From Bacteroidota bacterium (GTDB lineage Bacteria > Bacteroidota > Ignavibacteria > UBA10030 > UBA8401): a stretch of 32,691 nt of DNA. The position numbers were made by a program, and so were the translations under genes. Below are positions 6,163 to 28,160 of the stretch, piece by piece. The stretch covers positions 1-32,691 of the forward strand of contig WBUG01000036.1 of the NCBI GenBank assembly GCA_008933835.1, written 5' to 3'. Position 1 is the first letter of the stretch. Every line of letters begins with the position of its first letter. The notes below the pieces were generated by a model. The model was not told the DNA's origin, made no database searches, and was given only the letters and a program-made list of their open reading frames with translations.

Positions 6163-6191
6163 TGTGATGAAGAGGTTACGTGAGTGTTATG
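6163..6191 (-). promoter_or_regulatory. Candidate Pho box A (three 11-bp units)
   Basis: Read on the minus strand, CATAACA, CGTAACC and CATCACA follow each other at exactly 11-bp spacing (plus-strand starts 6185, 6174, 6163). The words fit the NRTAAYR core 7/7, 6/7 and 6/7. The array lies between the stop of ppx and the metallophosphoesterase start, in the direction of the latter. Tandem 7-bp words with 4-bp spacers are the architecture of PhoB/PhoP sites. The core word differs from the E. coli one. Confidence 0.6.
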
Positions 6192-10996: not shown

Positions 10997-11841
10997 GGAG
11001 GGTCGTCAAAGCGGCGGCGTTCATCGTCTCGTCGTTCCTCTTCCTTCTCCTCGGCATCCCGTACCGGCTCGTCGTGCGGTTCGCCGGCAGACCGTGGGAG
11101 CCGGCGGCGGCGCGGCTCTGCCGCTTCTGGGCCTCGCTCATGCTCCGCATTCTGGAGATCACCGTCTCGGTCAGGACACCGGAACATCAGCCGCTGTCCG
11201 GCGGCGTCCTGTCGGTCTCGAACCACCTCGGGTATCTTGACATCATCGTCATCGCCTCCCTCCGTCCGACCCTCTTCGTCGCCAAGCGGGACGTCCGCTC
11301 CTGGCCGCTGTTCGGCCGGCTGGCGCAGCTCGGCGGGACCGTCTTCGTGGACCGCGCCGCCTTTCGGGGGGCGCACGAAGCGTCGCAGGAGGTGTCCGTG
11401 CAGCTGCGCGGCGGAAGGAACGTTCACATCTTTCCGGAAGGGACCTCCACCGACGGCAGCTCGGTGCTTCCGTTCCGCCCTTCACTCTTCAGCGCCGCCG
11501 TCCAGGCCGGCGCGGCGGTCGTTCCGATGACCCTCCGGTACGGCCGCGTCAATGACGAACCGGTCTCACCCGCCGGCCGCGATCGCGTCCATTGGTACGG
11601 CAACATGACCTTCGCTTCGCACTTTTGGTCCCTCCTCGCCTGTCACGGCATCGCCGCAGAACTCACCGTCCATCCGCCGCTGGACGAGACGGCACGCTCG
11701 GAACCTCGCACGGCCTCCGTTGCGGCGTTCACGTCGGTCCGGTCAGCGTTCGTTCCCCTCCCTCCAAAAACACGGACCCCGTCGCCGGAGGGGGACGGGG
11801 TCCTGTGGACGCTCACTGACCGTCCGCCGCGTGGTGCTTGA
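10993..11841 (+). CDS. olsA: PlsC/OlsA-like 1-acyl-glycerol-3-phosphate acyltransferase
   Basis: This protein of about 282 residues begins at a GTG that overlaps the olsB-like stop (GTGA at 10993-10996). One or two N-terminal membrane segments are followed by the acyltransferase motif NHLGYLD (the family's NHX4D), then FVAKRDVRSWPLFG, and FPEGTST, the substrate-phosphate block. PlsC homologues linked to olsB (OlsA) add the second fatty acid to lyso-ornithine lipid, but many also make phosphatidic acid. No in-frame ATG is available before residue 50. The C-terminal 25 residues are odd: they are encoded across the phoU terminator and overlap the phoU coding end by 29 bases on the opposite strand. 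The symbol is inferred from context. Confidence 0.82.
   Translation: MRRVVKAAAFIVSSFLFLLLGIPYRLVVRFAGRPWEPAAARLCRFWASLMLRILEITVSVRTPEHQPLSGGVLSVSNHLGYLDIIVIASLRPTLFVAKRDVRSWPLFGRLAQLGGTVFVDRAAFRGAHEASQEVSVQLRGGRNVHIFPEGTSTDGSSVLPFRPSLFSAAVQAGAAVVPMTLRYGRVNDEPVSPAGRDRVHWYGNMTFASHFWSLLACHGIAAELTVHPPLDETARSEPRTASVAAFTSVRSAFVPLPPKTRTPSPEGDGVLWTLTDRPPRGA
11766..11807 (-). terminator. Rho-independent terminator of the porin-pst-phoU operon
   Basis: A hairpin with arms at 11771-11783 and 11794-11807 pairs almost perfectly (one bulge), with the core GGACCCCGTC. On the minus strand it is followed by five T residues (A tract at 11766-11770). It stands just after the phoU stop. It also lies inside the 3' coding part of the PlsC-like gene on the other strand. 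Confidence 0.75.
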
Positions 11842-12478
11842 CGAACTTCGCTTGCGTGTAGAAGATGACCTCCTCCGCGATGTTCGTCGCGAGGTCCGCC
11901 ACCCGCTCCAGGTTCCGGCTGATGCGCGCCAGTTCCAGGTTCCCTTCGATGGCCGCCTGGTCCGCCTTGATGAGCCGGACGATGGAAGAGATCATCTCGC
12001 GGTTGAGCGCGTCCACCTCGTCGTCCCGCTGCAGCACCCGCTGCGCCAGCGCGGCATCGAGCGTGGTGAAGCTCGTCATCGCATCGTCGAACATCGCCAG
12101 CGCCTGGCGTGACATCTCGGGGATGTGGATGAGCGCCTCGCGTCCCGGCGTCGCCGCCAGACCGGAGGCGGACTCGGCGATGTTCACCGCATGGTCGCCG
12201 ATGCGCTCCAGGTCGTTGTTGATCTTCAGGATGGAGAGGATGAGGCGGAGGTCGCGGGCCACCGGCTGCTGCAGCGCGAGGATGTCCACCACGCCGTTGT
12301 CGATCTCCAGTTCGTACCGGTTCACCCGCTGTTCGGTCTCGAACACCGTGCGGGCGAGCGCGGCATCGTCCTTTTCCACCGCGTCCAGCGCGTTCTTCAG
12401 CGCCTCGCGGACGTGGCGGCCCATGTCGACGAGCCGGGCCGTGAGCAGTTCGAGTTCCTTCTCAAAGTGTCGTTCCAT
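11813..12478 (-). CDS. phoU: Phosphate transport regulator PhoU
   Basis: The 221-residue protein is built from two three-helix bundles, as PhoU is. The two repeated metal-binding blocks are visible: NNDLERIGDHAVNIAE in the first half and SRNLERVADLATNIAEE in the second. PhoU links the Pst transporter to the PhoR-type kinase and represses phosphate uptake and the Pho response when phosphate is plentiful. It is the last gene of the porin-pst operon, 46 nt after pstB, and is followed by a strong terminator. No phoR or phoB gene lies in the window. Confidence 0.97.
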   Translation of the reverse strand: MERHFEKELELLTARLVDMGRHVREALKNALDAVEKDDAALARTVFETEQRVNRYELEIDNGVVDILALQQPVARDLRLILSILKINNDLERIGDHAVNIAESASGLAATPGREALIHIPEMSRQALAMFDDAMTSFTTLDAALAQRVLQRDDEVDALNREMISSIVRLIKADQAAIEGNLELARISRNLERVADLATNIAEEVIFYTQAKFVKHHAADGQ

Positions 12479-12524
12479 AACCCCGATGATGGTGGCGGAA
12501 TGATGCCGTGCGGCGGACGCGCGC

Positions 12525-13307
12525 TCAGCCGAAGCGTCCCGTAATATAATCTTCTGTTTGCTTCTTTGCCGGAACGGTGAAGATCCTTTTCGTCTCGTCG
12601 AATTCGACCAGTTCCCCCATGTAGAAAAAGGCCGTGAAATCGCTCACCCGGGCCGCCTGTTGCATGTTATGGGTGACGATGACGACGGTGTACTTCTCCT
12701 TCAGTTCATGGATGAGCTCCTCGATCTTGGCGGTGGCGATGGGGTCCAGCGCGCTGGCCGGCTCGTCCATCAGCAGCACCTCGGGGTCCACCGCCAGCGA
12801 CCGGGCGATGCAGAGGCGCTGCTGCTGTCCGCCGGAGAGCGACAGCCCGCTCTTGTGCAGGTCGTCCTTCACCTCGTCCCACAGCGCCGCCTGGCGCAGG
12901 CTCCGTTCCACCAGCGCATCGAGGGCGGCACGGTCCTTCATCCCGTTGATGCGGGGACCGTACGCCACGTTCTCGTAGATGGATTTGGGGAACGGGTTCG
13001 ATTTCTGGAAGATCATCCCGACCTTCTTGCGGAGCTCCACCACGTCGATGCCCCGGTCGTAGATGTTCACGCCGTCGAGCAGCACGCTCCCGTCGGTGTG
13101 CGCGCTCTCGATGAGGTCGTTCATCCGGTTCAGGGAGCGGAGGAAGGTGGACTTGCCGCAGCCGGAGGGACCGATGAACGCGGTGACGCGGTTCGCCGGA
13201 ATGGCGACGGTGACCTCCTTGATGGCGGGTTTCGTTCCGTAACGGATCGAGAGCCGTTCGGCTGCGATGCGGATGGTGGGCGTGTTCGGGTCCATGCGGT
13301 GTTCCAT
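12525..13307 (-). CDS. pstB: Phosphate ABC transporter ATP-binding protein PstB
   Basis: The 260-residue ATPase shows the Walker A loop GPSGCGKST, the family signature [16 protein letters not shown], and the Walker B block [13 protein letters not shown] followed by the H-loop in [10 protein letters not shown]. The text [11 protein letters not shown]-like region ([15 protein letters not shown]) is characteristic of PstB among ABC ATPases. It powers phosphate import through PstC and PstA. The start at 13307 lies two bases after the pstA stop; a second ATG at 13295 is a possible alternative. Confidence 0.97.
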
Positions 13308-13309
13308 GT

Positions 13310-14212
13310 TCAGGCCATCCGCCGTTTCCGCATCGTGTAGCGGAGGAAGATGGCGGAGAAGTTGAGGGCGAAGGTGAGCAGCAGCAGGACGAGCGTCGTG
13401 GCGTACTGGATGCCGCGCGTCGCCTCAACGTCCGGCGACTGCGTCGCCATGATGTAGATGTGGTATCCCAGTTCCATGAACTGGTCCGAGAGGGACGACG
13501 GAAGGTGCGGCAGGAAGTACGCCGCGCCGGTGAAGAGGATGGGGGCCACTTCGCCCGCCCCGCGGCTCACCGCGAGGATGCCGCCGGTGAGGATGCCGGT
13601 GATGGAGTTCGGGATCACCACCTTCACGATCGTCTGCCATTTGGTGGCGCCGAGCGCCAGGCTCGCTTCGCGCAGTTCGCGCGGCACGGTCTTGATGGCC
13701 TCCTCCACCGACACGATGACCACCGGCAGGGTGAGCAGCGCCATGGTGAGGCTCGCCCAGAGGATGTTCGGCTGGCCCCAGTGCAGCGCGCCGTCGTCGT
13801 ACAGCGACCGGTCGATGCCCGAACCGACGAACTGGATGAAGAAGCCGAGACCGAACAGTCCGAAGACGATGGCCGGGACGCCGGCCAGCGTGTTCACGGC
13901 GAAGCGGATGAGCCGCGCCAGTACGGAACGCGAACTGGCGTACTCGCTGAGATAGATGGCGGTGAAGGTGCCGATGGGGACCCCTGCGAGCGACATGATG
14001 ACGACGAGCAGGAACGTGCCGACGATGGCGGGAAAGATGCCCCCTTTGGTCATTCCTTCCTCCGGCGCGCCGAGCAGGAAGTCCGCCGTGAGACTGCTCC
14101 ATCCGCCGGCGACGATGATCCCCATGATGGTGACGACGGCGCCGACGATGAGCAGCGCGAAGAACGCGGGAAGGGCGTATGCGAGGAATCCGGCGACGTT
14201 GCGTTTCGTCAT
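13310..14212 (-). CDS. pstA: Phosphate ABC transporter permease PstA
   Basis: The 300-residue protein has about six membrane segments. The ABC-permease coupling segment [28 protein letters not shown] is present in the C-terminal half, as in PstA. The block [17 protein letters not shown] near residue 55 and IYLSEYA near residue 85 are also PstA features. It forms the inner-membrane channel with PstC. The start codon is one base behind the pstC stop, and the stop is two bases before the pstB start, so translation is tightly coupled. Confidence 0.96.
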
Positions 14213-14213
14213 G

Positions 14214-15272
14214 TCACTGTCCCGAGAATTTCTTCATGAGACGCCGGCGGATCCACAGTTCCGCCGCCGCGTTCAGCGCGAACGTGAAGAGGAAGAGGAT
14301 GGAACCGATCAGGAAGAGGACGTTGTAGTGGGTGTCCCCGAAGACCACCTCCGCCATCTCCGCGCCGATGGTGGCGGACATGGTGCGCACCGGTTCGAAC
14401 GGGTCGGCCGAAAGCAGCGCGGCGTTCCCGGTCGCCATCAGCACGATCATCGTCTCGCCGAACGCCCGTCCCACCCCCAGCAGCACCGCCGCGAAGATGC
14501 CGGGGGTCGCCGCCGGCAGCACCACGCGGAGCGCGGTCTGCCACCGTGTGGCGCCGAGCGCGAGGCTCGCTTCGGTGAGGGTCTTCGGAACGGCGGTGAG
14601 CGCGTCCTCCGAGATGGTGTAGATGATGGGAATGACCGCCAGCGAAAGCGCCACGCCGCCGACGAAGGCGTTGAGGCGGTACTGGAGTCCGAACGCGTCC
14701 TGCACGTAGGTGGCGAGGACCACCAGTGCGAAGAAGCCGATGACCACCGACGGGAACCCGGCGAGGATCTCGATGGCGGGCTTGAGGGCCTCCTTGGCCC
14801 ACTTCGGCGCGAAGACCGCCGTGAAGAGGGCCGCAAGGATGCCGATGGGTGCGGCGATGAGAACGGCGATGAGCGACACTTTGAAACTGCCGGCGATGAG
14901 GGGGAGCAGTCCGTACTTCGGCGTGCCGGAGACCGGCTGCCAGTGCGGTCCGGTCAGGTTCTTCAGCGACGCCTCCCCTTCCGCGTTCTCCACGGACGCC
15001 TCCCGAAGGCGCTGTTCGGCGGCGCGTTCCGTCTCGCTCATCGCGACGTCGCCGTACGTCTCCTGCTCCCCGAGCGCCTCCACGTCCACCGCCTCACGCT
15101 CGTGCGCCGAGAAGATGGGCAGTGTCTCACGGAAGACGAACACGAAGATGAGCACGATGAAGGCGAACGAGACGAACGCGGTCAGTGTGATGAGCTTCTC
15201 CGCCAGGTATTCACCGAGACGGAGCCGCTTCCGCGTGAGCTGTGTGCGCGTGTCGTTCATGAGGTGCGTCAT
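14214..15272 (-). CDS. pstC: Phosphate ABC transporter permease PstC
   Basis: This 352-residue permease carries the coupling segment [21 protein letters not shown] and the block GFPSVVIGFFAL typical of PstC. The ATG at 15272 overlaps the pstS2 stop as ATGA (15269-15272); a second ATG at 15260 would give a product four residues shorter. The loop between the first and second membrane segments is unusually long, about 75 residues. It contains an acidic, Glu/Ala-rich stretch (around residues 50-90) not expected in a minimal PstC, before the usual WQPVSGTPKYGLLPLI entry. The frame stays open further upstream, but that part is antisense-like Arg/Gly-rich sequence inside pstS2. Confidence 0.95.
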   Translation of the reverse strand: MTHLMNDTRTQLTRKRLRLGEYLAEKLITLTAFVSFAFIVLIFVFVFRETLPIFSAHEREAVDVEALGEQETYGDVAMSETERAAEQRLREASVENAEGEASLKNLTGPHWQPVSGTPKYGLLPLIAGSFKVSLIAVLIAAPIGILAALFTAVFAPKWAKEALKPAIEILAGFPSVVIGFFALVVLATYVQDAFGLQYRLNAFVGGVALSLAVIPIIYTISEDALTAVPKTLTEASLALGATRWQTALRVVLPAATPGIFAAVLLGVGRAFGETMIVLMATGNAALLSADPFEPVRTMSATIGAEMAEVVFGDTHYNVLFLIGSILFLFTFALNAAAELWIRRRLMKKFSGQ

Positions 15273-16084
15273 CGAAGGGGGAAATAACCGACGGCGGAGA
15301 CGACCTTCTGTCCCTCCGCCCCGAGCAGCCAGTCGACGAACCGTTTCGCCGCACCGGACGGACGCTGTGCCAGATAGAGGTAGAGCGATCGCGAGACGGG
15401 GTACGCTCCCTCGGACACCGCCTTCTCCGTCGGCAGGACCGCGGGTGACGCCGCGTCCATCTTCATCTTCACGGTGCGGACGTTCTTCGCGTACGCCGCG
15501 CCGCCGAACCCGATGCCGTTCGGGTCCTTCGCCACGGCGTGCACCACGGAGGCGGTCCCCGGCATGTTCAGCGCTCCCGGCGCGAAGTCGCGGCCTTCCA
15601 GCACTTCGTCTTTGAAGAAGACGTACGTGCCGGAGTTGTTCTCGCGGCTGTAGAGAATGATGGGCGCGTCCGTTCCCCCCACCTCGCTCCAGCGGCGGAT
15701 CTCGCCGAGGTAGATGCGGCGGAGCTGTTCGAGGGTGAGCTCCTGCACCGGGTTCTTCCCGTTCACGTAGACCGAGACGGCATCGCGCGCCACGCGGATC
15801 TCGACGCCGCCGGTCCCGTTCCGCTTCTTGAGCTTCGCCCGCTCGGTCGCTTTCAGCGGACGCGACGCCATGGCGATGTCCGTGGAGCCGTTGATGAGGG
15901 CGGAGACGCCCGTTCCGGTCCCGCCGCCGGTCACCTGCACCGTGATGCCGGCATCCTTCTTCATGTACAGTTCCGCCCACCGCTGCACCAGGATGACCAT
16001 GGTGTCCGAACCCTTCACGGTCACGACCTCCCGCGCGGGGAGCAGCGCGACGGCGGCGACCAGCAATGCGATCGTTCTGTGCAT
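15269..16084 (-). CDS. pstS: Periplasmic phosphate-binding protein PstS, second copy
   Basis: A 271-residue binding protein with a short signal peptide (MHRTIALLVAAVALLPA) and no lipobox. The phosphate-site blocks are VKGSDTMV at the N-terminus, GGGTGTGVSALI, the ASRPLK block, and YSRENNSGTYVFF. It ends with the family tail GYFPLR. The ATG at 16084 is supported by GAGGGGG in front; a GTG four codons earlier overlaps the upstream stop. It is clearly a tandem duplicate of the preceding pstS1, but well diverged, especially in the middle and C-terminal region. Two different binding proteins feeding one PstCAB complex could widen the range of affinity. Confidence 0.94.
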   Translation of the reverse strand: MHRTIALLVAAVALLPAREVVTVKGSDTMVILVQRWAELYMKKDAGITVQVTGGGTGTGVSALINGSTDIAMASRPLKATERAKLKKRNGTGGVEIRVARDAVSVYVNGKNPVQELTLEQLRRIYLGEIRRWSEVGGTDAPIILYSRENNSGTYVFFKDEVLEGRDFAPGALNMPGTASVVHAVAKDPNGIGFGGAAYAKNVRTVKMKMDAASPAVLPTEKAVSEGAYPVSRSLYLYLAQRPSGAAKRFVDWLLGAEGQKVVSAVGYFPLR

Positions 16085-16092
16085 CGTCCCCC

Positions 16093-16914
16093 TCACCGCA
16101 CCTTGAAGTAACCGACCTTCGTGACCACCTCCTGCCCCTCGTCGCTCAGCACCCAGTCGATGAAGTTCTTGATCTCTCCCGCCGGCCTGCTCTTCAGGTA
16201 CATGTAGAGGAAGCGGGTGATGGGGTACGAACCGTTGCCGACCGTCTCGGCGGTGGGCAGGAACGCCGGCGACCCGTCGTCCGCCTTGATCATCATGTCG
16301 CGGATCCCCTTGCCGTACGCCGCGCCGCCGTACCCGATGCCGTTCGGGTCTTTCGCCACCGCGTTCACCACCGCGGCGGTGCCGGGCATGTTCTGGCAGC
16401 TCGGCGCATAGTCCTCCGTCTCGAGCACGACATCCTTGAAGTAGACGTACGTTCCCGAGTTGTTCTCGCGGCTGTAGAGGATGATGCGCGCGTCCTTGCC
16501 GCCGACCTCCTTCCAGTTCGTGATGCGGCCGGTGTAGATGTCCTTCACCTGCCGCAGCGTCAGTTCCTTCACCGGATTCGATTCGTGGACGTAGAGCGCG
16601 ACGCCGTCCTTCGCCACCTTCACCTCCACGCCGAGCGTGCTGAAGCGCTGCTTCAGTTTCTGCTTCTCGGCGGGCTTCATCGGCCGGGACGCGTCGCAGA
16701 TGTCCGTGGTGCCGTTGATGAGCGCCGAGATGCCGGTGCCCGAACCGCCGCCGGTCACCTGGATGGTGACGTTCGGATTCTTTTTCATATACTGCTCCGC
16801 CCAGCGCTGGGCGAGGATGACCATCGTGTCCGAGCCCTTCACGGTGATGACCTCGCCGCCGAAGAGCGATGCGGGGAACGCCGCCAGCAGCACGAGTGCG
16901 ATGAACTTTTTCAT
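16093..16914 (-). CDS. pstS: Periplasmic phosphate-binding protein PstS, first copy
   Basis: The 273-residue protein has a signal peptide ending near FPASLFGG and no lipobox cysteine, so it is a soluble periplasmic protein. Phosphate-site blocks are VKGSDTMVIL, GGGSGTGISALI, DASRPM and YSRENNSGTYVYF. The Arg in ASRP replaces the Asp of the E. coli site, which is usual for this PstS branch. The ATG at 16914 has a strong ribosome binding site (AGGAGGG). The gene follows the porin by 30 nt, so outer-membrane entry and periplasmic capture of phosphate are made from one message. Confidence 0.95.
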   Translation of the reverse strand: MKKFIALVLLAAFPASLFGGEVITVKGSDTMVILAQRWAEQYMKKNPNVTIQVTGGGSGTGISALINGTTDICDASRPMKPAEKQKLKQRFSTLGVEVKVAKDGVALYVHESNPVKELTLRQVKDIYTGRITNWKEVGGKDARIILYSRENNSGTYVYFKDVVLETEDYAPSCQNMPGTAAVVNAVAKDPNGIGYGGAAYGKGIRDMMIKADDGSPAFLPTAETVGNGSYPITRFLYMYLKSRPAGEIKNFIDWVLSDEGQEVVTKVGYFKVR

Positions 16915-16944: not shown

Positions 16945-18300
16945 TTAGTACGGGAACCGGTACTGGATCCGGAACGTGAAGACGTCGTCCTTCACATCGG
17001 CCGTGTACGGGGCCAGCGCTCCCGCGGCGGACGCGTTGACCGTCTCGTTGACCGGCATCTCATGGTAGAGCGTGAACTTCACGTTCTCGTCGAGATGGAA
17101 CAGGTAGCCGAGGCCGATGGTGGCGTACGCGATGTCCCCCACCGTCGTCGCGCTTCCCGCCGCGCCGATTCCGCTCCCCTCGACGTCCGTGTTGGGGTCC
17201 AGCACATCGTACCGTACCAGCAGCTGGTGCCGCGTGCCGATGTTCTGGAGCAGGCTCACATAGTATCCGGAGAACCGCCGCTCGTAGAGCGGAGTTCCCG
17301 CCGCGGAGGGATTGTAGAACGTGTTCGCCGCCGCGGTGCCGGGCTGCCGCCCTGTGATGTACTCCCCGCGCAGCGAGATGCCGCCGATGTCCGGAATGTC
17401 ATAGATGATCTGCAGGTCGGCGCCGACATACTGCCGCGGCGAACTCCGGCCGTTGTTGGTCAGCGCGGAATCGACCGTGAAGCGGCTTCCGTTCATGGTG
17501 GAGAGGAACTTCGACGTGTTCCGCACGCTGCCGTAATAGAAGGAGACGCCGCCGTCCACCGCCGCGTTCGCCTCCTCGAAGGGGACGATCACCCCCGCAC
17601 GGCCGATGAGGTCCTTCCGGCTGTCGTTCTCGTTCCCGTTCGGCAGCACGCCGTTGAAGAGGCCGAGCTTCAGGTTATAATTGCTCCACGGCTCGAACTC
17701 CGGCTGGAACTCGATCATGGCGCCGAGCTCACGCTCGCCGGGGAAGAGGGTCTGCGCGAGGCGGGAGCGTTCCGGCGTCTCGCGCATGTTGGACGAGTAC
17801 GCCACTTCGAATCCGAACGGCCGGTCGAACACCCCCATCCGCAGGTTCCAGTCCCTCGTCCACGGGTCCTTCAGGTTGATGTAGGCGTCCTTGATGCCGA
17901 GCCCGTTCTGTGTCACGTCCACCTGCAGCACGTACTGCGAGAAGGTGATGTCGTTCTCGTACTGCACCTTCAGCCGCCCGCGCCGCACCTGGAAGCGGGA
18001 ACCGACGTTCGCCGGGAACGCGCCGCCGGAGAACCCGCCGATGGGGTACGCCCCGTTGCCGGTCCCGTTCGTCGCCTGGAACTGCGTCTGCATGTACCCC
18101 GAGAACTTCAGTTTCCGCGAGAGGTCGATGTAGCTCTTCATCTCCAGCAGGATCTCGTTGACGCTCTCGTTGTGCATCTTCAGCTGCTCCACCTCCTCTT
18201 TGACGGACGGAGAAACGGAAATGGAGTCGACCGCTTCTTCCTGCGCCGCTGCGGCGCCGGAGAGAAGGAGGAACAGGATGAACGATGAACGGATGCGCAC
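16945..18300 (-). CDS. Phosphate-selective porin (OprO/OprP-like)
   Basis: The 451-residue product has a signal peptide (RSSFILFLLLSGAAAAQ), then a short coiled-coil segment (VKEEVEQLKMHNESVNEILL), then a beta-barrel of 16-strand-type length ending in an aromatic outer-membrane signal (FRIQYRFPY). The barrel has the OprO/OprP layout: FSGYMQTQFQ at the first strand, RRGRLKVQYENDI, and MGVFDRPFGFEVAYSS. The family forms trimeric channels for phosphate or polyphosphate. The start is a GTG at 18300 with AAGGAG seven bases upstream; a TTG twelve codons earlier is less likely. It is the first gene of the pst operon, behind a four-unit Pho-box-like array. Confidence 0.88.
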   Translation of the reverse strand: MRIRSSFILFLLLSGAAAAQEEAVDSISVSPSVKEEVEQLKMHNESVNEILLEMKSYIDLSRKLKFSGYMQTQFQATNGTGNGAYPIGGFSGGAFPANVGSRFQVRRGRLKVQYENDITFSQYVLQVDVTQNGLGIKDAYINLKDPWTRDWNLRMGVFDRPFGFEVAYSSNMRETPERSRLAQTLFPGERELGAMIEFQPEFEPWSNYNLKLGLFNGVLPNGNENDSRKDLIGRAGVIVPFEEANAAVDGGVSFYYGSVRNTSKFLSTMNGSRFTVDSALTNNGRSSPRQYVGADLQIIYDIPDIGGISLRGEYITGRQPGTAAANTFYNPSAAGTPLYERRFSGYYVSLLQNIGTRHQLLVRYDVLDPNTDVEGSGIGAAGSATTVGDIAYATIGLGYLFHLDENVKFTLYHEMPVNETVNASAAGALAPYTADVKDDVFTFRIQYRFPY

Positions 18301-18349
18301 GAATATGCTCCTTGTCTGTGAAATTGAGCGGACCAATATGTTAAGTTTT

Positions 18350-18393
18350 CGTTATGTAAACGTTATGCCAGCGTTACCGAATTGTTATGCGAT
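18350..18393 (-). promoter_or_regulatory. Candidate Pho box B (four 11-bp units)
   Basis: On the minus strand CATAACA, GGTAACG, CATAACG and CATAACG follow one another at exactly 11 bp (plus-strand units start at 18383, 18372, 18361 and 18350). All four fit NRTAAYR. The array is pointed at the porin-pst-phoU operon, with the near end 49 nt before the GTG. A TAACAT at 18338-18343 could be the -10 element. This is the strongest of the four arrays and fits expression of pst genes under phosphate limitation. Confidence 0.75.
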
Positions 18394-18529: not shown

Positions 18530-18558
18530 GGTAACAATCGGGTAACGCTGAAGTAATA
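18530..18558 (+). promoter_or_regulatory. Candidate Pho box C (three 11-bp units)
   Basis: GGTAACA (18530), GGTAACG (18541) and AGTAATA (18552) are spaced exactly 11 bp apart and all fit NRTAAYR. They point to the TonB-receptor gene, 51 nt from its ATG. Downstream lies an AT-rich stretch (TTAAATTTTAAG) that could hold the -10 element. Confidence 0.68.
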
Positions 18559-18609
18559 TCCAATCGCGAAGTTTGTGCATTAAATTTTAAGAATAATAAG
18601 GGACTCTCC

Positions 18610-21336
18610 ATGCTGCGAATCATCTCCGCCGCTCTTCTTCTCCTCGTCACCATCTCCCACGCTCAGAACGGCGCCGTCATCTCCGGAAAGGTGCGCGACC
18701 AGCGCACGGGCGACGACCTCATCGGCGCCAACGTGCTCGTCGTCGGTACGAAGCTCGGCGCTTCGACGGACATCGAGGGACGCTTCCAGGTCCGCCGGGT
18801 GCCGCCCGGAACGTACGACATCCGCATCTCCTTCCTCGGCTATGAGAGCAAGACCATCGCCGGCGTGACGGTGGCGGAGAACGAGACGAAGACGCTCGAT
18901 GTCAGTCTGAGCGAGGACCAGGGGATCCAGCAGCAGGAGGTCGTCATCAGCGCCTCGGCCATCAAGTCCGGCGAAGGGGCCATCCTGGCGGAGCGGAAAA
19001 AGGCGGCGAGCATCGGCGACGGCATCAGCGCGGAGCAGATGCGGAAGGCGCCGGACGCGACCTCGGGCGACGCCCTGAAGCGGGTCACCGGCGTGACGCT
19101 GGTGGACAACAAGTTCGTCTTCGTCCGCGGCGTGACCGACCGATACAACCAGACCACCCTCAACGGCGCCTCGGTCACCAGCACGAGCGTGGACAAGAAG
19201 AGCTTCTCGTTCGACATGCTCCCTTCCAATCTCATCGAGAACATGAACGTGGCCAAGACCGCCACGCCGGACCTTCCGGGAGACTTCACCGGAGGGCTCG
19301 TGCAGCTGCATACCATGGACTTCCCCGATGCGCGCTCCATCAAGCTCGTCATGTCCGGCGGCGTCAACTCCATCACCACCTTCGAGCCGTTCAACCGCTC
19401 GATGGGTGGCGGCACGGACTGGTTCGGGAGCGATGACGGCATCCGGAGCATACCGGCGGGAGTGGACAATCCGTCCTCCGCGAACCTCATCGGCACGAAG
19501 GCACCGAACACGTTCGCTCCGCGCGGCATCAGCGCCCCGATGAACCAATCCCTTAGTCTCTCCGTTGCGGATGTCATCGACTTCGATGAGAGCCACTTCG
19601 GCTACCTTGCCGCTTTCTCGTACCGCAACAGTCACCAGCGAACCAACACCGTACTCAACGACTACACCGCGCTCGTGCTGAACCGCTCCCTGTCGGGGAC
19701 CATCGACCGTTTCTCGGTCCTCTGGGGAGGCATCCTCGACCTCAACATGAAGTTCGCGGACCTGCACAAGATCTCGCTGAAGAACAACTACAACAAGTCC
19801 GCCGAGGACCGGTACAACGCGGTCGGCGGTTCGGACTATACGAACGACCAGTACGTCCGCTCGTACCAGACGGAATGGGAGGAGCGGGGAATGCTCTCGT
19901 CGCAGCTCGGCGGCGAGCATAAGCTGCCGGAACTGTTCGGCGTATCGGCGGACTGGCTCGTCTTCTTCTCCGAGGCGAACACCGACCAGCCGGACCGGAA
20001 GCAGGTGGACTACAACCTGAGCCGCGCCTATCCGGACACCGATCCGTTCGCCGTCAACACGCAGCTCACCGCCCGTTCCTGGGGCGCGCTGTACGACCGG
20101 ACGCTCGGGCAGAAGATGAACGTCGTCGTTCCCGTGCAGGGAGCGAAGGTGAAGCTCGGCATCCTGCATGAACAGAAGAACCGTCACTACGACATCCGGT
20201 ACTTCCAGCCCACGACCCTCACGCTGACGCAGTACGACCTGCTGCTCTACAACATCGATTCGGTCTTCGCGAACTCGAACTTCGGTCCGGGCAAGTTCGG
20301 ATACCAGGAGATCACCAAGCCGTCGGACCGCTATGCGGCGAAGCAGGACCTCCTGGCAACGTACCTGATGCTGGATGTGCCGTTCTCGGTGTCGGCGGAA
20401 CAGTTCCGCTTCACCGGAGGGGTGCGAATGGAGGATTCGCGGCAGGAGGTCTACACGAACAAGGCGCGCACCATCTACGAACCGTCGACCAGCGTGATCG
20501 ACACGCGGGATTTCCTCCCCTCGGTCAACCTGACCTACCTCATCACGGAAACGCAGAACCTGCGGGTCGCGTACAGCCACACGGTGAACCGCCCCGAGTT
20601 CCGCGAGATGGCGAACGTGTACTTCTATGATTTCGACAAGTTCGAGTACGTCGTCGGTGACTCGACCCTCTCCCGCGCCTACGCCCGGAACTACGACATC
20701 CGGTACGAGGTCTTCCCGGACGCCGGGGACCTGTTCGCGGTGAGCTGGTTCTACAAGCACATCTCCTCCCCCATCGAAGAGCGGCGCATCTCCGGCGTGG
20801 GCGGGACGACCGAGCGGAGCTGGCTCAACGCGTCGTACGCGACCAACTCCGGATTCGAAGTGGAAATGAGAAAGCACCTCGGTTTCGTCGCGGAGTACCT
20901 TCACAACGCGCAGCTCGTCGCGAACTTCACCCGCATCTACTCCGAAGTGCCGTTCCGCGAATCCTCGGGAGCGTCGGGAGTGGTGGAGGGGGTTCGTCAG
21001 ATGCAGGGACAGTCCCCCTACATGTTCAACGTGTCGCTCTTCTTCACCGAGCCGTCGCTCGGCACGTCCGTGAACGTGCTGTACAACGAATACGGTTCGC
21101 GCATCGACGCCATCGGACAGCTCGGCAACGGCGACTTCAACGTGATCGAGGAACGCCGCGGCACGGTGGACCTCTCCCTCACTCAGCCGCTGAGCGGTCT
21201 GGTGACCGGACTGGAAATGAAGTACACCGCCAAGAACCTGAACAATCAGCCGATCGTCTTCACCCACGGTTCGAACGAGTACCGCCGCAACGTCATCGGC
21301 ATCTCCCATTCGCTGCAGTTCAGCATGAACTTCTAG
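18610..21336 (+). CDS. TonB-dependent outer-membrane receptor
   Basis: The 908-residue protein has a signal peptide (LRIISAALLLLVTISHAQ), then a carboxypeptidase-regulatory-like domain at about residues 20-105 (ISGKVRDQRTGDDLIGANV and STDIEGRFQVRRVPPGTYDI). A plug domain follows at about 125-250 (RVTGVTLVDNKFVFVRGV, DLPGDFTGGLVQL), and then the 22-strand-type barrel ending in an aromatic residue (SLQFSMNF). It should import a large or scarce substrate in a TonB-dependent way. It has no SusD-like partner, so it is not a classical glycan system. The start is preceded by AAGGGA. The promoter region has Pho box C, which suggests a phosphorus-containing ligand. The ligand itself cannot be named. 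Confidence 0.93.
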   Translation: MLRIISAALLLLVTISHAQNGAVISGKVRDQRTGDDLIGANVLVVGTKLGASTDIEGRFQVRRVPPGTYDIRISFLGYESKTIAGVTVAENETKTLDVSLSEDQGIQQQEVVISASAIKSGEGAILAERKKAASIGDGISAEQMRKAPDATSGDALKRVTGVTLVDNKFVFVRGVTDRYNQTTLNGASVTSTSVDKKSFSFDMLPSNLIENMNVAKTATPDLPGDFTGGLVQLHTMDFPDARSIKLVMSGGVNSITTFEPFNRSMGGGTDWFGSDDGIRSIPAGVDNPSSANLIGTKAPNTFAPRGISAPMNQSLSLSVADVIDFDESHFGYLAAFSYRNSHQRTNTVLNDYTALVLNRSLSGTIDRFSVLWGGILDLNMKFADLHKISLKNNYNKSAEDRYNAVGGSDYTNDQYVRSYQTEWEERGMLSSQLGGEHKLPELFGVSADWLVFFSEANTDQPDRKQVDYNLSRAYPDTDPFAVNTQLTARSWGALYDRTLGQKMNVVVPVQGAKVKLGILHEQKNRHYDIRYFQPTTLTLTQYDLLLYNIDSVFANSNFGPGKFGYQEITKPSDRYAAKQDLLATYLMLDVPFSVSAEQFRFTGGVRMEDSRQEVYTNKARTIYEPSTSVIDTRDFLPSVNLTYLITETQNLRVAYSHTVNRPEFREMANVYFYDFDKFEYVVGDSTLSRAYARNYDIRYEVFPDAGDLFAVSWFYKHISSPIEERRISGVGGTTERSWLNASYATNSGFEVEMRKHLGFVAEYLHNAQLVANFTRIYSEVPFRESSGASGVVEGVRQMQGQSPYMFNVSLFFTEPSLGTSVNVLYNEYGSRIDAIGQLGNGDFNVIEERRGTVDLSLTQPLSGLVTGLEMKYTAKNLNNQPIVFTHGSNEYRRNVIGISHSLQFSMNF

Positions 21337-21351
21337 TCCCCTGTTCTACGG

Positions 21352-21375
21352 CCGCCGCGGGAGGTTCCGCGGCGG
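21352..21375 (+). terminator. Possible terminator or attenuating hairpin after the TonB receptor
   Basis: CCGCCGCGG and CCGCGGCGG form a perfect 9-bp stem around a 6-nt loop, 16 nt after the stop. The following stretch is pyrimidine-rich without a clean T tract, so it may act as a weak terminator or an mRNA 3'-end stabiliser. Confidence 0.45.
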
Positions 21376-21407
21376 TCCCGTTCCGCCCCCTCCTTTCTTC
21401 ACACAAG

Positions 21408-21436
21408 CGTAATACTCCCGTTACGGTACAGTAAAC
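21408..21436 (+). promoter_or_regulatory. Candidate Pho box D (three 11-bp units)
   Basis: CGTAATA (21408), CGTTACG (21419) and AGTAAAC (21430) are exactly 11 bp apart and match NRTAAYR 7/7, 6/7 and 5/7. This is the weakest array on its own, but its spacing and position (78 nt before the ATG) are like the others. It implies that the T9SS protein has its own phosphate-responsive promoter in addition to any read-through from the TonB gene. Confidence 0.5.
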
Positions 21437-21514
21437 TCCGCATGATATTTTGCGGAGGTTGTATCGGACGCCGACTCTTCCTCACCTCCATCATCATCAC
21501 CGAAAGGATCCATC

Positions 21515-23212
21515 ATGAAGCGATTGCACACCATCAGTGTGTTCCTGCTCCTCGGCCTCTTCTCCGCCGCGGTCGCGCAGCCGAAGCCGACGAAGGTCAT
21601 CGGCGCCGGTCTGGGCGCCGCCGCCAAAGCACCCTTCAACCTCACCGCGGGTAAGAGCATGACGCTCCACCGCGATACGGTCTACATCCTGACCGGCTTC
21701 TACTACGTCGACTCCCTGGCCGTCATGAACATCCAGGCGGGAACGGTCATCCTGGGCGACAGCGCCACCAACGGCACGCTCATCGTCCGCCGCGGCGGCA
21801 CCATCAACGCCGAAGGGACGAAGAGCGAGCCGATCGTCTTCACCTCGTCCAAGCCCGCCGGACAGCGCAAGCGCGGTGACTGGGGAGGCGTGGTCATCCT
21901 CGGCAACGCGCCGACGAATAAACCGGTCACGACGAAGATCGAAGGGATCGACGCCGGCGGTGAGTACGGCGGAGACAATCCGAACGACAACAGCGGCGTC
22001 TTCCGCTACGTCCGCATCGAGTATCCCGGCATCGTCATCTCGCTCAACAACGAGATCAACGGTCTCACCATGGGCGGCGTCGGCAACGGCACGAAGATCG
22101 ACCATGTACAGGTGAGCTACTCCAACGACGACGCGTTCGAGTGGTTCGGCGGCACCGTGGACGCGAAGTACCTCGTCGCGCTCGGCGCTCTGGACGATGA
22201 CTTCGACACCGACTTCGGTTTCTCCGGCAAGGTGCAGTTCGCGTTCAGCAAGAAGGACCCGGCCGCGTGGGACGCCGCCGGTCAGACGAACGGGTTCGAA
22301 TCGGACAATGACGCCACCCCGACCACGCAATCGCCGCTCACCGCTCCGGTCTTCTCCAACGTCACGCTCGTCGGTCCGCAGTCCGACACGTCGGTCGCCC
22401 TGCCGGCGGGCAACAAGTTCGAGTACGGCGCGGTCATCCGCCGCAATACCCGGCTAAGCGTCCATAATTCGATCATCATGGGCTTCCCCTTCGGGCTGTC
22501 GCTGCGCAACGATTCCACCGCGGCGTACGCCCAGCAGGGACTGCTGCAGATCCGTAACGTCAGTCTTCAGGCCCGTACGAACGTGCTGAACACCTCGTCC
22601 GTCGCCGGCGGACTGGGCTTCAACTTCGGCACCTTCTACGGTACGGCCGGTTGGAACAACCTCGGTTCCACCCCGCGTCAGCCCTCGGCCCTCTCGCTGG
22701 TCGATGCGTTCAATCTGACCGCTCCGGACCCCCGTCCGACCCCCGGCACCGAAGCGGCGACCGCGGGAACGGACTACTCCAGCGTCCAGCTGAACACTTC
22801 CTTCTTCACCCCGGTGTCGTACCGCGGCGCGTTCGATCCGTCGCTCTCCCGTTCCGCGCAGTGGGACGCCGGTTGGACCAACTATAATCCGAACAACACC
22901 AACTACATCACCGGCGTCCGCCCGGCCGGCTCCAACGGCTCGGCTCCCGTGCAGTACGCGCTGGACCAGAACTATCCGAACCCCTTCAACCCCTCCACCA
23001 CCATCCGCTACGCGCTGCCGTTGAACGGCAATGTGACGCTGAAGGTGTACAGCGTGGTGGGACAGGAAGTGGCGACGCTGGTCGACGCGTTCCAGACCGC
23101 CGGTTCGTACCAGGCGTCGTTCGACGCGAGCCGCCTCGCCTCGGGCGTGTACTTCTACACGCTCAGCGCGGCGAACTTCACGCAGGTGAAGAAAATGATG
23201 CTTCTGAAATAA
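21515..23212 (+). CDS. T9SS-exported beta-helix-like protein
   Basis: This 565-residue protein starts with a signal peptide (MKRLHTISVFLLLGLFSAAVAQ). The middle region is made of repeated short strands (for example GTVILGDSATNGTLIVRRGG, SEPIVFTSSKP, GDWGGVVILGNAPTN, VRIEYPG), which suggests a right-handed parallel beta-helix. A conserved-looking acidic block NDDAFEWFGGTVDAKYLV comes near residue 205. The C-terminal domain (from about residue 480, QNYPNPFNPSTTIRYALP to QVKKMMLLK) is the type-A T9SS sorting domain, so the protein should be secreted and anchored to the cell surface. No catalytic motif was recognised. It follows the TonB receptor and has its own candidate Pho box, so I infer a partner that binds or processes a phosphorus source. 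The ATG is supported by AAAGGA. Confidence 0.88.
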   Translation: MKRLHTISVFLLLGLFSAAVAQPKPTKVIGAGLGAAAKAPFNLTAGKSMTLHRDTVYILTGFYYVDSLAVMNIQAGTVILGDSATNGTLIVRRGGTINAEGTKSEPIVFTSSKPAGQRKRGDWGGVVILGNAPTNKPVTTKIEGIDAGGEYGGDNPNDNSGVFRYVRIEYPGIVISLNNEINGLTMGGVGNGTKIDHVQVSYSNDDAFEWFGGTVDAKYLVALGALDDDFDTDFGFSGKVQFAFSKKDPAAWDAAGQTNGFESDNDATPTTQSPLTAPVFSNVTLVGPQSDTSVALPAGNKFEYGAVIRRNTRLSVHNSIIMGFPFGLSLRNDSTAAYAQQGLLQIRNVSLQARTNVLNTSSVAGGLGFNFGTFYGTAGWNNLGSTPRQPSALSLVDAFNLTAPDPRPTPGTEAATAGTDYSSVQLNTSFFTPVSYRGAFDPSLSRSAQWDAGWTNYNPNNTNYITGVRPAGSNGSAPVQYALDQNYPNPFNPSTTIRYALPLNGNVTLKVYSVVGQEVATLVDAFQTAGSYQASFDASRLASGVYFYTLSAANFTQVKKMMLLK

Positions 23213-23628: not shown

Positions 23629-23865
23629 ATCATCCCTCCTCCCATCTCTCCCCTTGATTCTGTTCCAATCCTTGAGTACGATACTGCAGCGATGGTCACC
23701 AGCATCGTGTTTTCGCCCTTCGAGAAGCCGCCCAACTTCTGATCGTCGTACAGCGTTGTGTTTTTCTGCGACAGAAGCACATTCTTTCAGTCAAGAATGT
23801 CCGCACATCGGGGAAATGTTGAATCCACATCGTACTCTCGGCACATTGTGTCCCGCCCATTGATA

Positions 23866-24918
23866 ATGAGAACACAAGTACAAATATACATTTATGCAAT
23901 AGCGCTCTTTGTAGGTTTACACTGCAAAGATGAAACCCTTCCCCCATGCACCGACTGCCCGCAACAGGTTGATACGACCAGCCACGACTTTACTTTTTAT
24001 GTTGATACGCTTGGTGATGGGAATTCAAGTGTGTTAAAAGATATAGTTATTCTGAATGAGAAAACTATTTTCGCCGTGGGAAGTATCAACTTTAAGAATA
24101 GAAACGGAGAGTATGACCCCGACTCGTTTTACAACGTGGTAAAGTGGGTTGGAACAGATCGGATATTTTATAAATCCAATTCCTTTGAATTGAATTCTAT
24201 AATTTGTTTTTCTGAAGATGATTTGTGGGTTTTCACTTCTGCTCCATATCATTGGAACGGAAGCGCTTGGCAAGGTTTCGATATAACGGGGAAGTTCAAT
24301 GGTTCTGTTTCAAAAGTGTGGGGAGCATCAAACAAGAATTACTATATGATTGGAACAAATGGCTCTGTTGCGCATTACAACGGAAGTAATTGGATACCAA
24401 TTTCGACCGGCACAACGCTTGATTTCAAAGACATCTGGGGAGACAAGAATCCGACGACGGGAGAATACGAAATATATGCGGTTGCATCCAAAGGACCGTT
24501 TAGCACGGAGAGAAAGATCTTCCGTATTCAGGGAACAACGGCAACAGAAATATCAACAGATGGCATTCCATATAGTGCGAGCTGCATCTGGTTTACATCT
24601 CAAAAGCAGTACTATGTTGCAGGGGGAGGGATGTGGAAGAAAGATAATATTACGTCGAACACACCGTGGCAGTCATTTGAGAACGGAGTGACTCCATACT
24701 ACATATACGGAATGCGTGGTCAATCAGTAAACGATATTGTTGCGGTCGGGTCGTTCGGAGAGTTGCTGCATTACAACGGTACGTCATGGAAGAGTTTTAG
24801 AGATTTGCCCGGGTTCAATAATCTCGAATTGTATTCCGTCGATATTAAGGGGAATGTGCTCTGTGCCGTCGGGTACATCGGCAATCGGGCATGCGTGGTG
24901 AGGGGATATCGAAGATAA
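23866..24918 (+). CDS. Lipoprotein with WNG/YNG repeats, probable beta-propeller; AT-rich, foreign-looking
   Basis: A 350-residue protein with a lipoprotein-like signal ending at Cys20 (FVGLHC). The lipobox has His before Cys and is not canonical. The body repeats short units such as HWNGSAWQGF, HYNGSNWIPI and HYNGTSWKSF, spaced with strand-forming text like WGASNKNYYMIGTNG. This is typical of BNR/Kelch-like beta-propellers seen in this bacterial group. Base composition and codon use are clearly richer in A and T than every neighbour, and the gene is set between repeat-rich spacers, which suggests horizontal acquisition. The ATG at 23866 starts the signal; the frame is open upstream but that part is not protein-like. 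Function is unknown. Confidence 0.72.
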   Translation: MRTQVQIYIYAIALFVGLHCKDETLPPCTDCPQQVDTTSHDFTFYVDTLGDGNSSVLKDIVILNEKTIFAVGSINFKNRNGEYDPDSFYNVVKWVGTDRIFYKSNSFELNSIICFSEDDLWVFTSAPYHWNGSAWQGFDITGKFNGSVSKVWGASNKNYYMIGTNGSVAHYNGSNWIPISTGTTLDFKDIWGDKNPTTGEYEIYAVASKGPFSTERKIFRIQGTTATEISTDGIPYSASCIWFTSQKQYYVAGGGMWKKDNITSNTPWQSFENGVTPYYIYGMRGQSVNDIVAVGSFGELLHYNGTSWKSFRDLPGFNNLELYSVDIKGNVLCAVGYIGNRACVVRGYRR

Positions 24919-25575: not shown

Positions 25576-26409
25576 CTACGGAACGTCGTAGAGCGGAATG
25601 TATCCGTTCTCCTTCACCACCCGCTGCCCTTCCGGACCGGTCACCCACTCCACGAACTTCTTCACCTCCCCGGCCGGAGGATGCACCGAATAGAGATAGA
25701 GGTACCGCGAAACGGGATACGCCCCGCTGCGCACGTTCTCCGCGGCCGGGGCGACGCCGTTCAGGGAGACGAAGGCGACGTTCTCCGCCACCGCGGGGGT
25801 GGAGTAACCGACCGCCCCGCTGTCCGCCGCCACCGCGGCCGCCAGCGCCCGCGCTCCCGCCGCGTTCCGCGCCGCCGCCGAAACGCTCCGTCCCGCCATC
25901 ACATGCTCGTCGAAGTAGAGATACGTGCCGGAGTTCGGCTCGCGCACCACCGGCGTGACGGGCCGGTCATCCCCTCCCGCCTGCCGCCAGTTCACGATCT
26001 CCCCCGCGAAGATCCCCCGCACCTGCTCCAGCGTCAGCGCCTTCACCGGATTCGACGGATGGACGACGATGCTCAGCGCGTCCCGCGCGCCGAGGATGGA
26101 GACGCCGACGGAGGAATGCCGCGCCGCCAGGCGGCCGGTCTCCTCCGTCGTCAGCGGCCGCGACGTGGCGCACAGTTCCACCCGTTCCTCCGTCATCGCG
26201 CGGATGCCGTCCGCACTCCCGCCCCCGTCCGCGCGGACGGAGACGCCGGGATGCGCCGACATGTACGCCTCGGCCCACCGCTGTACGAGCAGGGACATCG
26301 ATTCCGACCCCTTGATACGGATGACCGCTTCGTTCCGCGGCGCTCCCGTTCCGCATCCCGCCGCGAACAGCGCCAGCGCGGCGATGAACAGCCTTCCGTT
26401 CGTTCTCAT
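25576..26409 (-). CDS. pstS: PstS-like phosphate-binding lipoprotein, third copy
   Basis: The 277-residue protein is a PstS-family binding protein, but it differs from the two copies in the pst operon. It is a lipoprotein (lipobox AAGC, Cys19) and has diverged at key blocks: KGSESMSLL instead of KGSDTMVIL, GGGSADGIRAM instead of GGGSGTGISAL, and VREPNSGTYLYF for the SGTY block. The family tail GYIPL is kept. The start codon overlaps the stop of the M28 peptidase gene as ATGA (26406-26409), so it is translationally coupled to that gene and not to a transporter. It may bind phosphate weakly, bind another oxyanion, or act as a sensor or surface binder. Confidence 0.88.
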   Translation of the reverse strand: MRTNGRLFIAALALFAAGCGTGAPRNEAVIRIKGSESMSLLVQRWAEAYMSAHPGVSVRADGGGSADGIRAMTEERVELCATSRPLTTEETGRLAARHSSVGVSILGARDALSIVVHPSNPVKALTLEQVRGIFAGEIVNWRQAGGDDRPVTPVVREPNSGTYLYFDEHVMAGRSVSAAARNAAGARALAAAVAADSGAVGYSTPAVAENVAFVSLNGVAPAAENVRSGAYPVSRYLYLYSVHPPAGEVKKFVEWVTGPEGQRVVKENGYIPLYDVP

Positions 26410-28055
26410 CGTCGCTCCGCGTTCGTTCTGAGCCGTTCCTGCCGGAAGATGACGCCGGGCCGCCACTCCGGCACCGCATCGTCGTTCGCCAGGCGCAGCA
26501 CCAGCCGGCGGATGATGCCGGTGTGCTGCAGCGCCGCATCGAAGTTCAGCGGCTGCAACGCGTCGTCCTTCGGCGAATGGTACACCGAGTCGGACCATGC
26601 CGCGTACCGTTCGAGTCCGGCAGCGTACGCCGTCGTTTCGTACCGCAGTCCCTCCGCAACGAGCAGCGAGGGAATGCCCGCCTGCGCGAACAAGAACTGG
26701 TCCGATTTCCGGAACTGGTCCGGCCGGAAGAGGTCCGGCGGCAGTTCCTCCCGCGTCACGCCGCTCCCCTCCAGCGCGCGGTCCAGCGTCTCGCCCAGCG
26801 TGGAGAGTTCGGCGCCGATGCCGATGACGCTCCGCACCCGTTCGAAGAGCGAGAGACCGTCGATGTTGACGTTGGCGGCGGTGCGGTACAGCGGCACCGG
26901 TGGATGGAGACAGTAGTACTGCGAACCGAGGAACCCCCGCTCTTCGCCGGTGAGGAAGGCGATGAGCACGGAGCGGCGGAGTCCGTTCCGTTCCCGCTGC
27001 AGTACCCGCGCCAGCTCCAGCAGCGCCGCGGTGCCGCTCGCGTTGTCGACGAGTCCGTTGTACACCGAATCACCCTCCGCGGCCGGGCCGACGCCGAGAT
27101 GGTCGTAGTGCGCGGTGAGCAGCACGTACGAGCCGCGCAGCACGGGATCGCTCCCGTCGATGACGCCGATGACGTTCGACGCCGGAACGTCCCGCTCAAT
27201 GAAGCGCCCCTGGAAGCTCACCATCATCGGCAGGTCGAAGCTCCGCATCGTCCCCTGCCGGTCGAACGCGGTCACGTCGTCGTACGAGTACGGCGCCTGG
27301 GAGAAGAGGAAGGGACCGAGCTTCGGGTTGAGCATGGCGTTGAAGTTCTCGGACGGGGTCACCACCGGACGCATCTCTTCGAACCGGAAGTGCCGCTGCT
27401 GTTCGTACCAGTCGTCGAGCGAGCGGTCGTTGGGGTTCGGCAGCAGGACGCTGCCGCGCGCGCCGCGGGCGAGAGCGATGCGCTGCTTCAGCGTGAACTC
27501 GGCGTGCACCGTGCTCCGCTCCCCGTCGAAGTACGTATCGTCGTCGGAGCGCGGTTCGCCGGTGAGGAACACCACCACGGCGTTCCGCACGTCGATGTCC
27601 CGGTAGTCGTTGTAGTCGTACTCCGGCGCGATGATGCCGTAGCCGACGAAGACCATGCGCGCCGGCAGCGGGATGAACGTCTGCGCGCCGGAGGAGAAGA
27701 GGACGTAATCCTCCTGCAGCCGGAGGGCGTACGCGTCGCGCGGCGCGAAGAGGCGCAGGTCGCTCTCCTCCCCCGCCCGGCTGCCGTGCACCGGAAAGGT
27801 CTGGAAGTACGACGGCAGGGAGGGGAGCGGCGCCACGCCGTACCGTTCCAGTTCGGCGCGGAGATACTCCGCCGCCGCCTGGATGCCGGGCGAACCGACG
27901 GCGCGCCCCTGCAGCGAATCGTGCGCCAGCGTCAGCATGTGCCGCCGCAGCGCATCGGCGGAAAGACCGTCGCCGGTCTGCGCTGTGCCGTTCAAGACGA
28001 ACACCATCGTCAGCGATGCGACGAAAAGGATGATATGTCTGGTACGTTCAGGCAT
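26406..28055 (-). CDS. Exported M28-family zinc peptidase with PA-type insert
   Basis: The 549-residue protein has an N-terminal signal segment (RHIILFVASLTMVFVLNGTAQ). A PA-type domain lies in the first half (about 120-290). The zinc-binding catalytic part is intact in order: TAHYDHLG (His, Asp), GLVDNASGTAALLELA (Asp bridging), TGEERGFLGS (Glu pair), NVNIDG (Asp) and VYHSPKDD (His). Proteins of this type are aminopeptidases or related exopeptidases acting outside the cytoplasm. The ATG at 28055 is chosen because it starts the signal; the earlier frame is arginine-rich and runs into the terminator of the upstream gene. The gene is coupled by overlap to the third PstS-like gene. Confidence 0.92.
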   Translation of the reverse strand: MPERTRHIILFVASLTMVFVLNGTAQTGDGLSADALRRHMLTLAHDSLQGRAVGSPGIQAAAEYLRAELERYGVAPLPSLPSYFQTFPVHGSRAGEESDLRLFAPRDAYALRLQEDYVLFSSGAQTFIPLPARMVFVGYGIIAPEYDYNDYRDIDVRNAVVVFLTGEPRSDDDTYFDGERSTVHAEFTLKQRIALARGARGSVLLPNPNDRSLDDWYEQQRHFRFEEMRPVVTPSENFNAMLNPKLGPFLFSQAPYSYDDVTAFDRQGTMRSFDLPMMVSFQGRFIERDVPASNVIGVIDGSDPVLRGSYVLLTAHYDHLGVGPAAEGDSVYNGLVDNASGTAALLELARVLQRERNGLRRSVLIAFLTGEERGFLGSQYYCLHPPVPLYRTAANVNIDGLSLFERVRSVIGIGAELSTLGETLDRALEGSGVTREELPPDLFRPDQFRKSDQFLFAQAGIPSLLVAEGLRYETTAYAAGLERYAAWSDSVYHSPKDDALQPLNFDAALQHTGIIRRLVLRLANDDAVPEWRPGVIFRQERLRTNAERR

Positions 28056-28084
28056 GCAGTTCGAACACCCGATAAAATACGATA

Positions 28085-28110
28085 ATTCCCGGCGAGGCGG
28101 AACCGGGAAT
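28085..28110. repeat. Inverted repeat in the leader of the M28 gene
   Basis: ATTCCCGG and CCGGGAAT form a perfect 8-bp stem around a 10-nt loop, between the upstream terminator and the M28 start. It could be an operator or an mRNA leader hairpin. Confidence 0.4.
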
Positions 28111-28126
28111 CGGCGGCCTCGGAACG

Positions 28127-28160
28127 AAAAAGCCCCGAACGACACGTTCGTTCGGGGCTT
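28127..28160 (-). terminator. Terminator of the second T9SS gene
   Basis: AAGCCCCGAACGA (28130-28142) and TCGTTCGGGGCTT (28148-28160) form a perfect 13-bp stem with a 5-nt loop. On the minus strand five T residues follow (28127-28131). It stands about 20 nt after the stop codon. Confidence 0.92.

Follow-up and report, generated by a model that had tools for sequence, protein, structure and literature searches.

The window, a 32,691-nucleotide stretch of DNA from a Bacteroidota bacterium, encodes a TonB-dependent receptor and a surface-sorted β-helix protein beside a pst operon. Homology and synteny identify these two genes as a pair that is not new, matching ElpS with its receptor in Caulobacter and FII with its receptor in Flavobacterium johnsoniae PUSIV; the assignment is made through syntenic homologues of the CC0170 and Fjoh sequences. 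The window pair is a T9SS-anchored, pst-linked member of this ElpS/FII kind, in an Ignavibacteria-type version. We think it probable, though by no means certain, that it represents a widespread phosphate-starvation pair, induced by PhoB, in which the β-helix protein captures or cuts a phosphorus compound by means of cations and the receptor imports it. The evidence consists of homology, obligate pairing, arrays of Pho-type boxes, a predicted β-helix fold and invariant acidic residues. Low-phosphate induction and surface location have been shown in the literature for homologues; a physical complex, cation binding, the substrate and the direction of transport are what we infer. To what was known of such pairs the analysis adds their strict co-occurrence, a partial linkage to Pho genes with boxes kept elsewhere, an exchange of surface anchors and the invariant acidic residues.

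Gene layout and Pho-type boxes

The source genome (3.57 Mb, 163 contigs) has Ignavibacteria-type Bacteroidota as its nearest relatives by sequence. The receptor gene (18610-21336, + strand) encodes 908 aa, in which domain profiles place a CarboxypepD_reg-like N-terminal domain, a plug and a barrel. After a gap of 178 bp follows the gene for a secreted protein of 565 aa (21515-23212, +), consisting of a signal peptide and right-handed β-helix domain of an ElpS/FII-type surface protein (21515-22900, +; from the fold model and conserved acidic residues) and a T9SS type A C-terminal sorting domain (22973-23212, +; PF18962, TIGR04183). An Rfam search of the window gave no match for an RNA element between the two genes. 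Diverging from the receptor gene is a porin-pst operon on the minus strand (18288-11813), which starts with a Porin_O_P-family (phosphate-selective porin-like) gene (16945-18288, −; PF07396, 33.7 bits against a cut-off of 20.9) and continues with pstS, pstS, pstC, pstA, pstB and phoU (11813-16914, −; assigned by profiles, pstB by its translation); ppk and ppx lie further on. The gene calls, sorting-tail profiles and fold model confirm an earlier note on this DNA, which had described a TonB receptor and a T9SS β-helix protein adjoining the pst operon. Long antisense ORFs overlapping the receptor gene (e.g. 18580-21309, −) were taken as GC-rich artefacts.

Two further features of the window were recorded. 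A third PstS-like binding protein is encoded at 25576-26430 (−), where it immediately follows a gene for an M28 peptidase (26406-28145) and has no visible Pho-type array upstream; in two other loci (L009 and L132), the pair likewise has such a PstS as its neighbour. A 386-aa ORF at 23758-24918 has no Pfam match and lies in a low-GC island (~43%, against 58-68% around it), possibly acquired.

The Pho-type box of the receptor gene (18532-18557, +) contains three units with an 11-bp period, TAACAATCGGG TAACGCTGAAG TAAT, located ~55-80 bp before the ATG and following the pattern TAAC-N7-TAAC-N7-TAAT. That of the porin-pst operon (18340-18387, −) contains five TAAC units with a period of exactly 11 bp. 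Perfect TAAC-N7-TAAC-N7-TAAY arrays occur at only three promoters genome-wide, those of the porin/pst operon, the receptor and one PAP2-family phosphatase on another contig, and the reversed control pattern gave zero matches. The phosphatase array (L088; G000:C61:38539-38564, −), ~45 bp before its gene, is the sole perfect site outside the window. Allowing one mismatch added one promoter, with a candidate box (6164-6189, −) just upstream of a calcineurin-like metallophosphoesterase gene in the window (5219-6121, −). The control pattern gave 3 matches at this stringency, so the box is regarded as weaker and the gene as a candidate further member of the Pho regulon. For the β-helix gene, a weak candidate box was found at ~21410-21440 (+), GTAATACTCCC GTTACGGTACA GTAAACT, with units TAAT/TTAC/TAAA.

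The periodicity recurs in relatives. Receptor promoters from 63 loci, covering many Bacteroidota, contained 1.67 identical 5-mers 11 bp apart per promoter, compared with 0.24 in 642 control promoters; at 22 bp the corresponding values were 0.86 and 0.19. The commonest repeats were TAACA, CTTAA, ACTTA and GTAAC. A three-unit array was present upstream of the receptor in 20 of 22 loci (the window and 21 relatives, leaving out L009, in which the receptor start lies beyond the contig end), compared with 0.66% of background stretches, and upstream of the porin in 8/8. The same automatic rule detected an array before the β-helix gene in 2/23 loci, and an array at a similar distance was seen before this gene in three close relatives of the window (L009, L132 and L133). 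The earlier note had given each gene its own Pho box; the case is strong for the receptor gene, by virtue of genome-wide uniqueness, and moderate for the β-helix gene. Matches to TIGR02154 (PhoB) in the window bacterium's class all fall below the curated cut-off, so that PhoB is a putative regulator in this bacterium. The box arrays themselves suggest that the pair is induced there by low phosphate.

Co-occurrence of the pair and its linkage to phosphate genes

The β-helix domain was found in 116 of the 197 genomes of the window bacterium's class. All 80 β-helix-bearing genomes tested carried a matching receptor, usually exactly one and adjacent to the β-helix gene, compared with a strong receptor in 3 of 80 genomes without the β-helix domain, all three of these at contig ends or cut (Fisher P 2e-42). 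Among 79 loci examined, 69 had enough sequence for the neighbourhood to be read, and in 65 of these a receptor homologue was encoded in the same orientation as the β-helix gene and no more than two genes away from it. Co-occurrence of the two families, which the earlier note had proposed as a check, thus holds almost without exception. Its interpretation is supported in part, by the obligate pairing, by Pho-type boxes at this locus and at those of most relatives, and by low-phosphate induction of homologues (PMC8115612; for ElpS, PMC2996285). Both the regulation and the pairing are well supported.

Linkage to phosphate genes is partial. A pstC gene lay ≤10 kb from the pair in 12 of 70 pstC-bearing genomes, from seven families, where ~0.45 would be expected. 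Within the class, a phoB-like gene was near the pair in 6 genomes and ppx in 8; in all, 22 of 80 genomes had pstC, phoB or ppx ≤10 kb away from the pair. In other lineages, 11 of 79 loci had phoR-phoB next to the pair, and one of the PhoB proteins scored above the curated cut-off. No phosphatase gene was consistently linked to the pair across loci. The pair is therefore enriched beside phosphate genes and most copies lie elsewhere: in 58 of the 80 class genomes it is unlinked, which would speak against the earlier note's reading by the refuting condition that the note itself had set on location, but receptor arrays are kept at 7/8 loci unlinked to Pho genes, so that the box travels with the pair.

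The 58 unlinked pairs could also be read to mean that the box has nothing to do with Pho control and that the pair stands beside pst by chance. We consider this very improbable, given the genome-wide uniqueness of the box, the arrays kept before receptor and porin in relatives, the linkage enrichment and the induction of homologues by low phosphate (PMC8115612).

Polyphosphate was considered as the substrate from the linkage to ppx. Because six of the eight ppx-linked genomes come from one family, it was kept as a lead and not adopted.

The survey of loci yielded several observations of its own. On a Pseudoalteromonas plasmid (L097), ExbB, ExbD and TonB genes adjoin the β-helix-receptor pair and are possibly its dedicated energy supply. 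Three loci typical of Bacteroidota or Ignavibacteria come from public records with the titles Bradyrhizobiaceae, Streptomyces griseus and Chryseobacterium gleum (L020, L058 and L068); wrong labelling or binning is the probable cause for at least the first two. One family member (L094, 7836-9269) is misannotated as 'cell shape-determining protein MreB'.

The β-helix protein and its possible roles

The sorting tail scored 47.5 bits against TIGR04183 (cut-off 23) and 40.1 against PF18962 (cut-off 27), as for type A cargo of the T9SS. The signal peptide ends in ...AAVAQ and has no lipobox Cys, and with the T9SS tail present the protein does not class as lipoprotein-anchored. Close homologues carry a lipobox in Bacteroidales and Flavobacterium and a T9SS tail elsewhere; because the anchor varies among them, a lipoprotein anchor was not treated as family-defining. 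The β-helix domain is single-copy in the source genome, where other matches to the protein cover essentially the sorting tail only. Elsewhere it is tandem-duplicated within one protein in several lineages (L009 281-3322, L022, L032, L040 and L071), and some genomes have up to four copies (e.g. G123 and G133).

No Pfam family covers the β-helix domain, and a search for solved structures related to it by sequence returned only T9SS tails or noise. The AlphaFold model (pLDDT 87, pTM 0.80) is a right-handed β-helix. Foldseek alone gave poor superpositions, and a second pass with VIA-align gave clear β-helix matches with Z 16-22, including phage tailspike 5w6p (22.4), AlgE4 (21.1), pectate lyase Pel9A (19.7) and polygalacturonases (~18-20). 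The comparison with GH28, PL9, PL6 and AlgE thus gave matches of fold, with no Pfam family match to the domain.

In an alignment of 21 sequences spanning Bacteroidota, Alpha- and Gammaproteobacteria, twelve positions are acidic in every sequence (D158, E180, D196, D205, D206, E209, D227, D228, D231, D253, E262 and D264), and D233 is acidic in 20/21. The groups D205/D206/E209 and D227/D228/D231, which recur 22 residues apart, lie in loops before and within successive strands of one sheet. The acidic residues look like a contiguous groove suited to divalent cations. Pel9A binds Ca2+ via a similar DDxxD arrangement. With regard to the cation-rich pocket that the earlier note had proposed to look for, the family has these invariant acidic residues, at which metal ions could well be bound.

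The same features bear on other roles. The β-helix protein could act at the surface as a hydrolase or lyase on a glycan or some other polymer, freeing buried phosphorus, with the receptor importing the released fragment. Most of its fold neighbours are polysaccharide lyases, epimerases and polygalacturonases, its invariant acids stand on successive rungs as in the grooves for catalysis or Ca2+ that such folds possess, and the F. johnsoniae authors also modelled FI/FII-type proteins as polygalacturonase-like (PMC8115612). However, a shared β-helix does not show function, identity to the fold neighbours is 5-14%, and the domain, in which Arg309 and Arg310 are invariant but no His or Lys is, matches no Pfam enzyme family. 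We regard this role as a serious possibility, yet rather unlikely.

An acid-rich invariant site would also suit a pair that scavenges a metal, as an iron or calcium complex, limiting or phosphate-bound during phosphate starvation, in which case phosphorus would not be the cargo. The fold search with the receptor points to an ordinary TonB receptor, with FecA and siderophore receptors among its closest folds, but this fold is common to all TonB receptors and gives no substrate clue. Since the F. johnsoniae homologues are induced by phosphate depletion only and not by iron depletion (PMC8115612), metal scavenging seems quite improbable.

A third role, proposed for ElpS, is that the β-helix protein serves as activator or scaffold for a secreted phosphatase at the surface and does not itself handle the substrate. 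Overproduction of ElpS raised extracellular alkaline phosphatase activity, ElpS itself having none, but deletion of elpS left phosphatase activity unchanged (PMC2996285), and the strict pairing is with a receptor and not with a phosphatase. We consider this role improbable for the window protein.

In the reading that we favour, that of capture or cutting followed by import, PhoB would induce the pair together with the porin-pst operon, and the β-helix protein, exported by the T9SS, would work at the cell surface next to the receptor. The ladder of invariant acidic residues would hold divalent cations, and these would either link the protein to an anionic phosphorus compound or assist in cutting it. 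Drawing on energy from TonB, the receptor would then bring the compound, whole or in fragments, into the periplasm, and periplasmic enzymes and Pst would complete the use of the phosphorus. More tentatively, and with less than even confidence, we suggest that the pair is an outer-membrane capture machine of general use that works without SusD: a β-helix whose acidic groove is loaded with cations would form a lid on a dedicated receptor, a phosphorus polymer or ester would be imported, and lipid and T9SS anchors would be interchangeable. Candidate cargoes would be polyphosphate, a nucleic acid fragment or a phosphorylated glycan. With the conserved pairing, the Pho boxes across Bacteroidota and the unchanging acidic residues, which phosphorus compound is imported becomes a testable question. 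How such bacteria exploit dissolved organic phosphorus is of importance in both soil and water.

Comparison with known receptor-partner systems

A SusC/SusD pair was considered and rejected. The receptor scored 50.8 against the SusC model TIGR04056, far below the cut-off of 368, and domain-profile scans of neighbouring genes revealed no SusD, in agreement with the earlier note, which had excluded a standard glycan pair for want of a SusD partner. The best-matching subfamily is TonB-Xanth-Caul (TIGR01782), at 204 bits, which is below its cut-off of 310. The pair resembles SusCD/PusCD of Bacteroidota in that a TonB receptor with an N-terminal CarboxypepD_reg domain is encoded adjacent to a surface partner, and PusCD is phosphate-regulated; unlike in these systems, the receptor scores far below the SusC cut-off, SusD is absent and the partner is a β-helix. 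In BtuB-BtuG of Bacteroides, a non-SusC receptor likewise has a surface partner, and the window receptor model matches 8blw with Z 35.4, but the ligand there is vitamin B12. BtuG is not known to be a β-helix of the ElpS/FII-type family.

The closest relatives are those of Caulobacter and F. johnsoniae, with which the window pair shares homology over the β-helix domain and an adjacently encoded receptor. In Caulobacter, the gene for the low-phosphate surface lipoprotein ElpS adjoins those of the receptor CC0171 and of a T2SS, and the authors of the ElpS study already suggested a joint function of elpS and cc0171, the latter being reported as constitutively expressed in C. crescentus (PMC2996285). 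The PhoB regulon of C. crescentus includes the T2SS and several TonB receptors thought to import alternative phosphate donors (PMC11208175). Alphaproteobacterial relatives of the β-helix protein (profile E 2.5e-64) have the order β-helix-receptor-T2SS published for elpS (PMC2996285), and proteins of such elpS-type loci share 36% (Indioceanicola) and 43% (Sphingomonas) identity with the β-helix domain. Judged from these syntenic loci, CC0170/CC0171 is a homologous β-helix protein and receptor, the former low-phosphate-induced. It differs in that ElpS is a lipoprotein released with the help of the T2SS, that the β-helix gene comes first, and that no pst linkage is reported.

In F. johnsoniae, the low-phosphate-induced lipoproteins FI and FII are encoded downstream of low-phosphate-induced receptors (Lidbury et al., PMC8115612). 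The same study found FI-FIII to be related to Caulobacter ElpS, FI to make up 18.7% of the exoproteome under phosphate depletion, FII to sit in a cluster with phoB, phoR and oprP, and the PUSIV pair to be strongly induced by phosphate depletion; capture and import of phosphorus compounds were already proposed for these clusters (PMC8115612). A Flavobacterium locus with the order porin-phoR-phoB, then receptor-β-helix lipoprotein, reproduces the published order of Fjoh_0542-0546 (PMC8115612), and its lipoprotein and receptor match those of the window with E 3e-52 and 2e-63, respectively (38% identity for the β-helix protein). PUSIV (receptor Fjoh_0545, FII Fjoh_0546) thus shares with the window pair a β-helix homologue, a receptor of the same family, and an adjacent OprP-family porin and Pho genes. 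FII is a lipoprotein with phoBR as its neighbour, whereas the partner in the window has a T9SS tail and lies next to a full pst operon.
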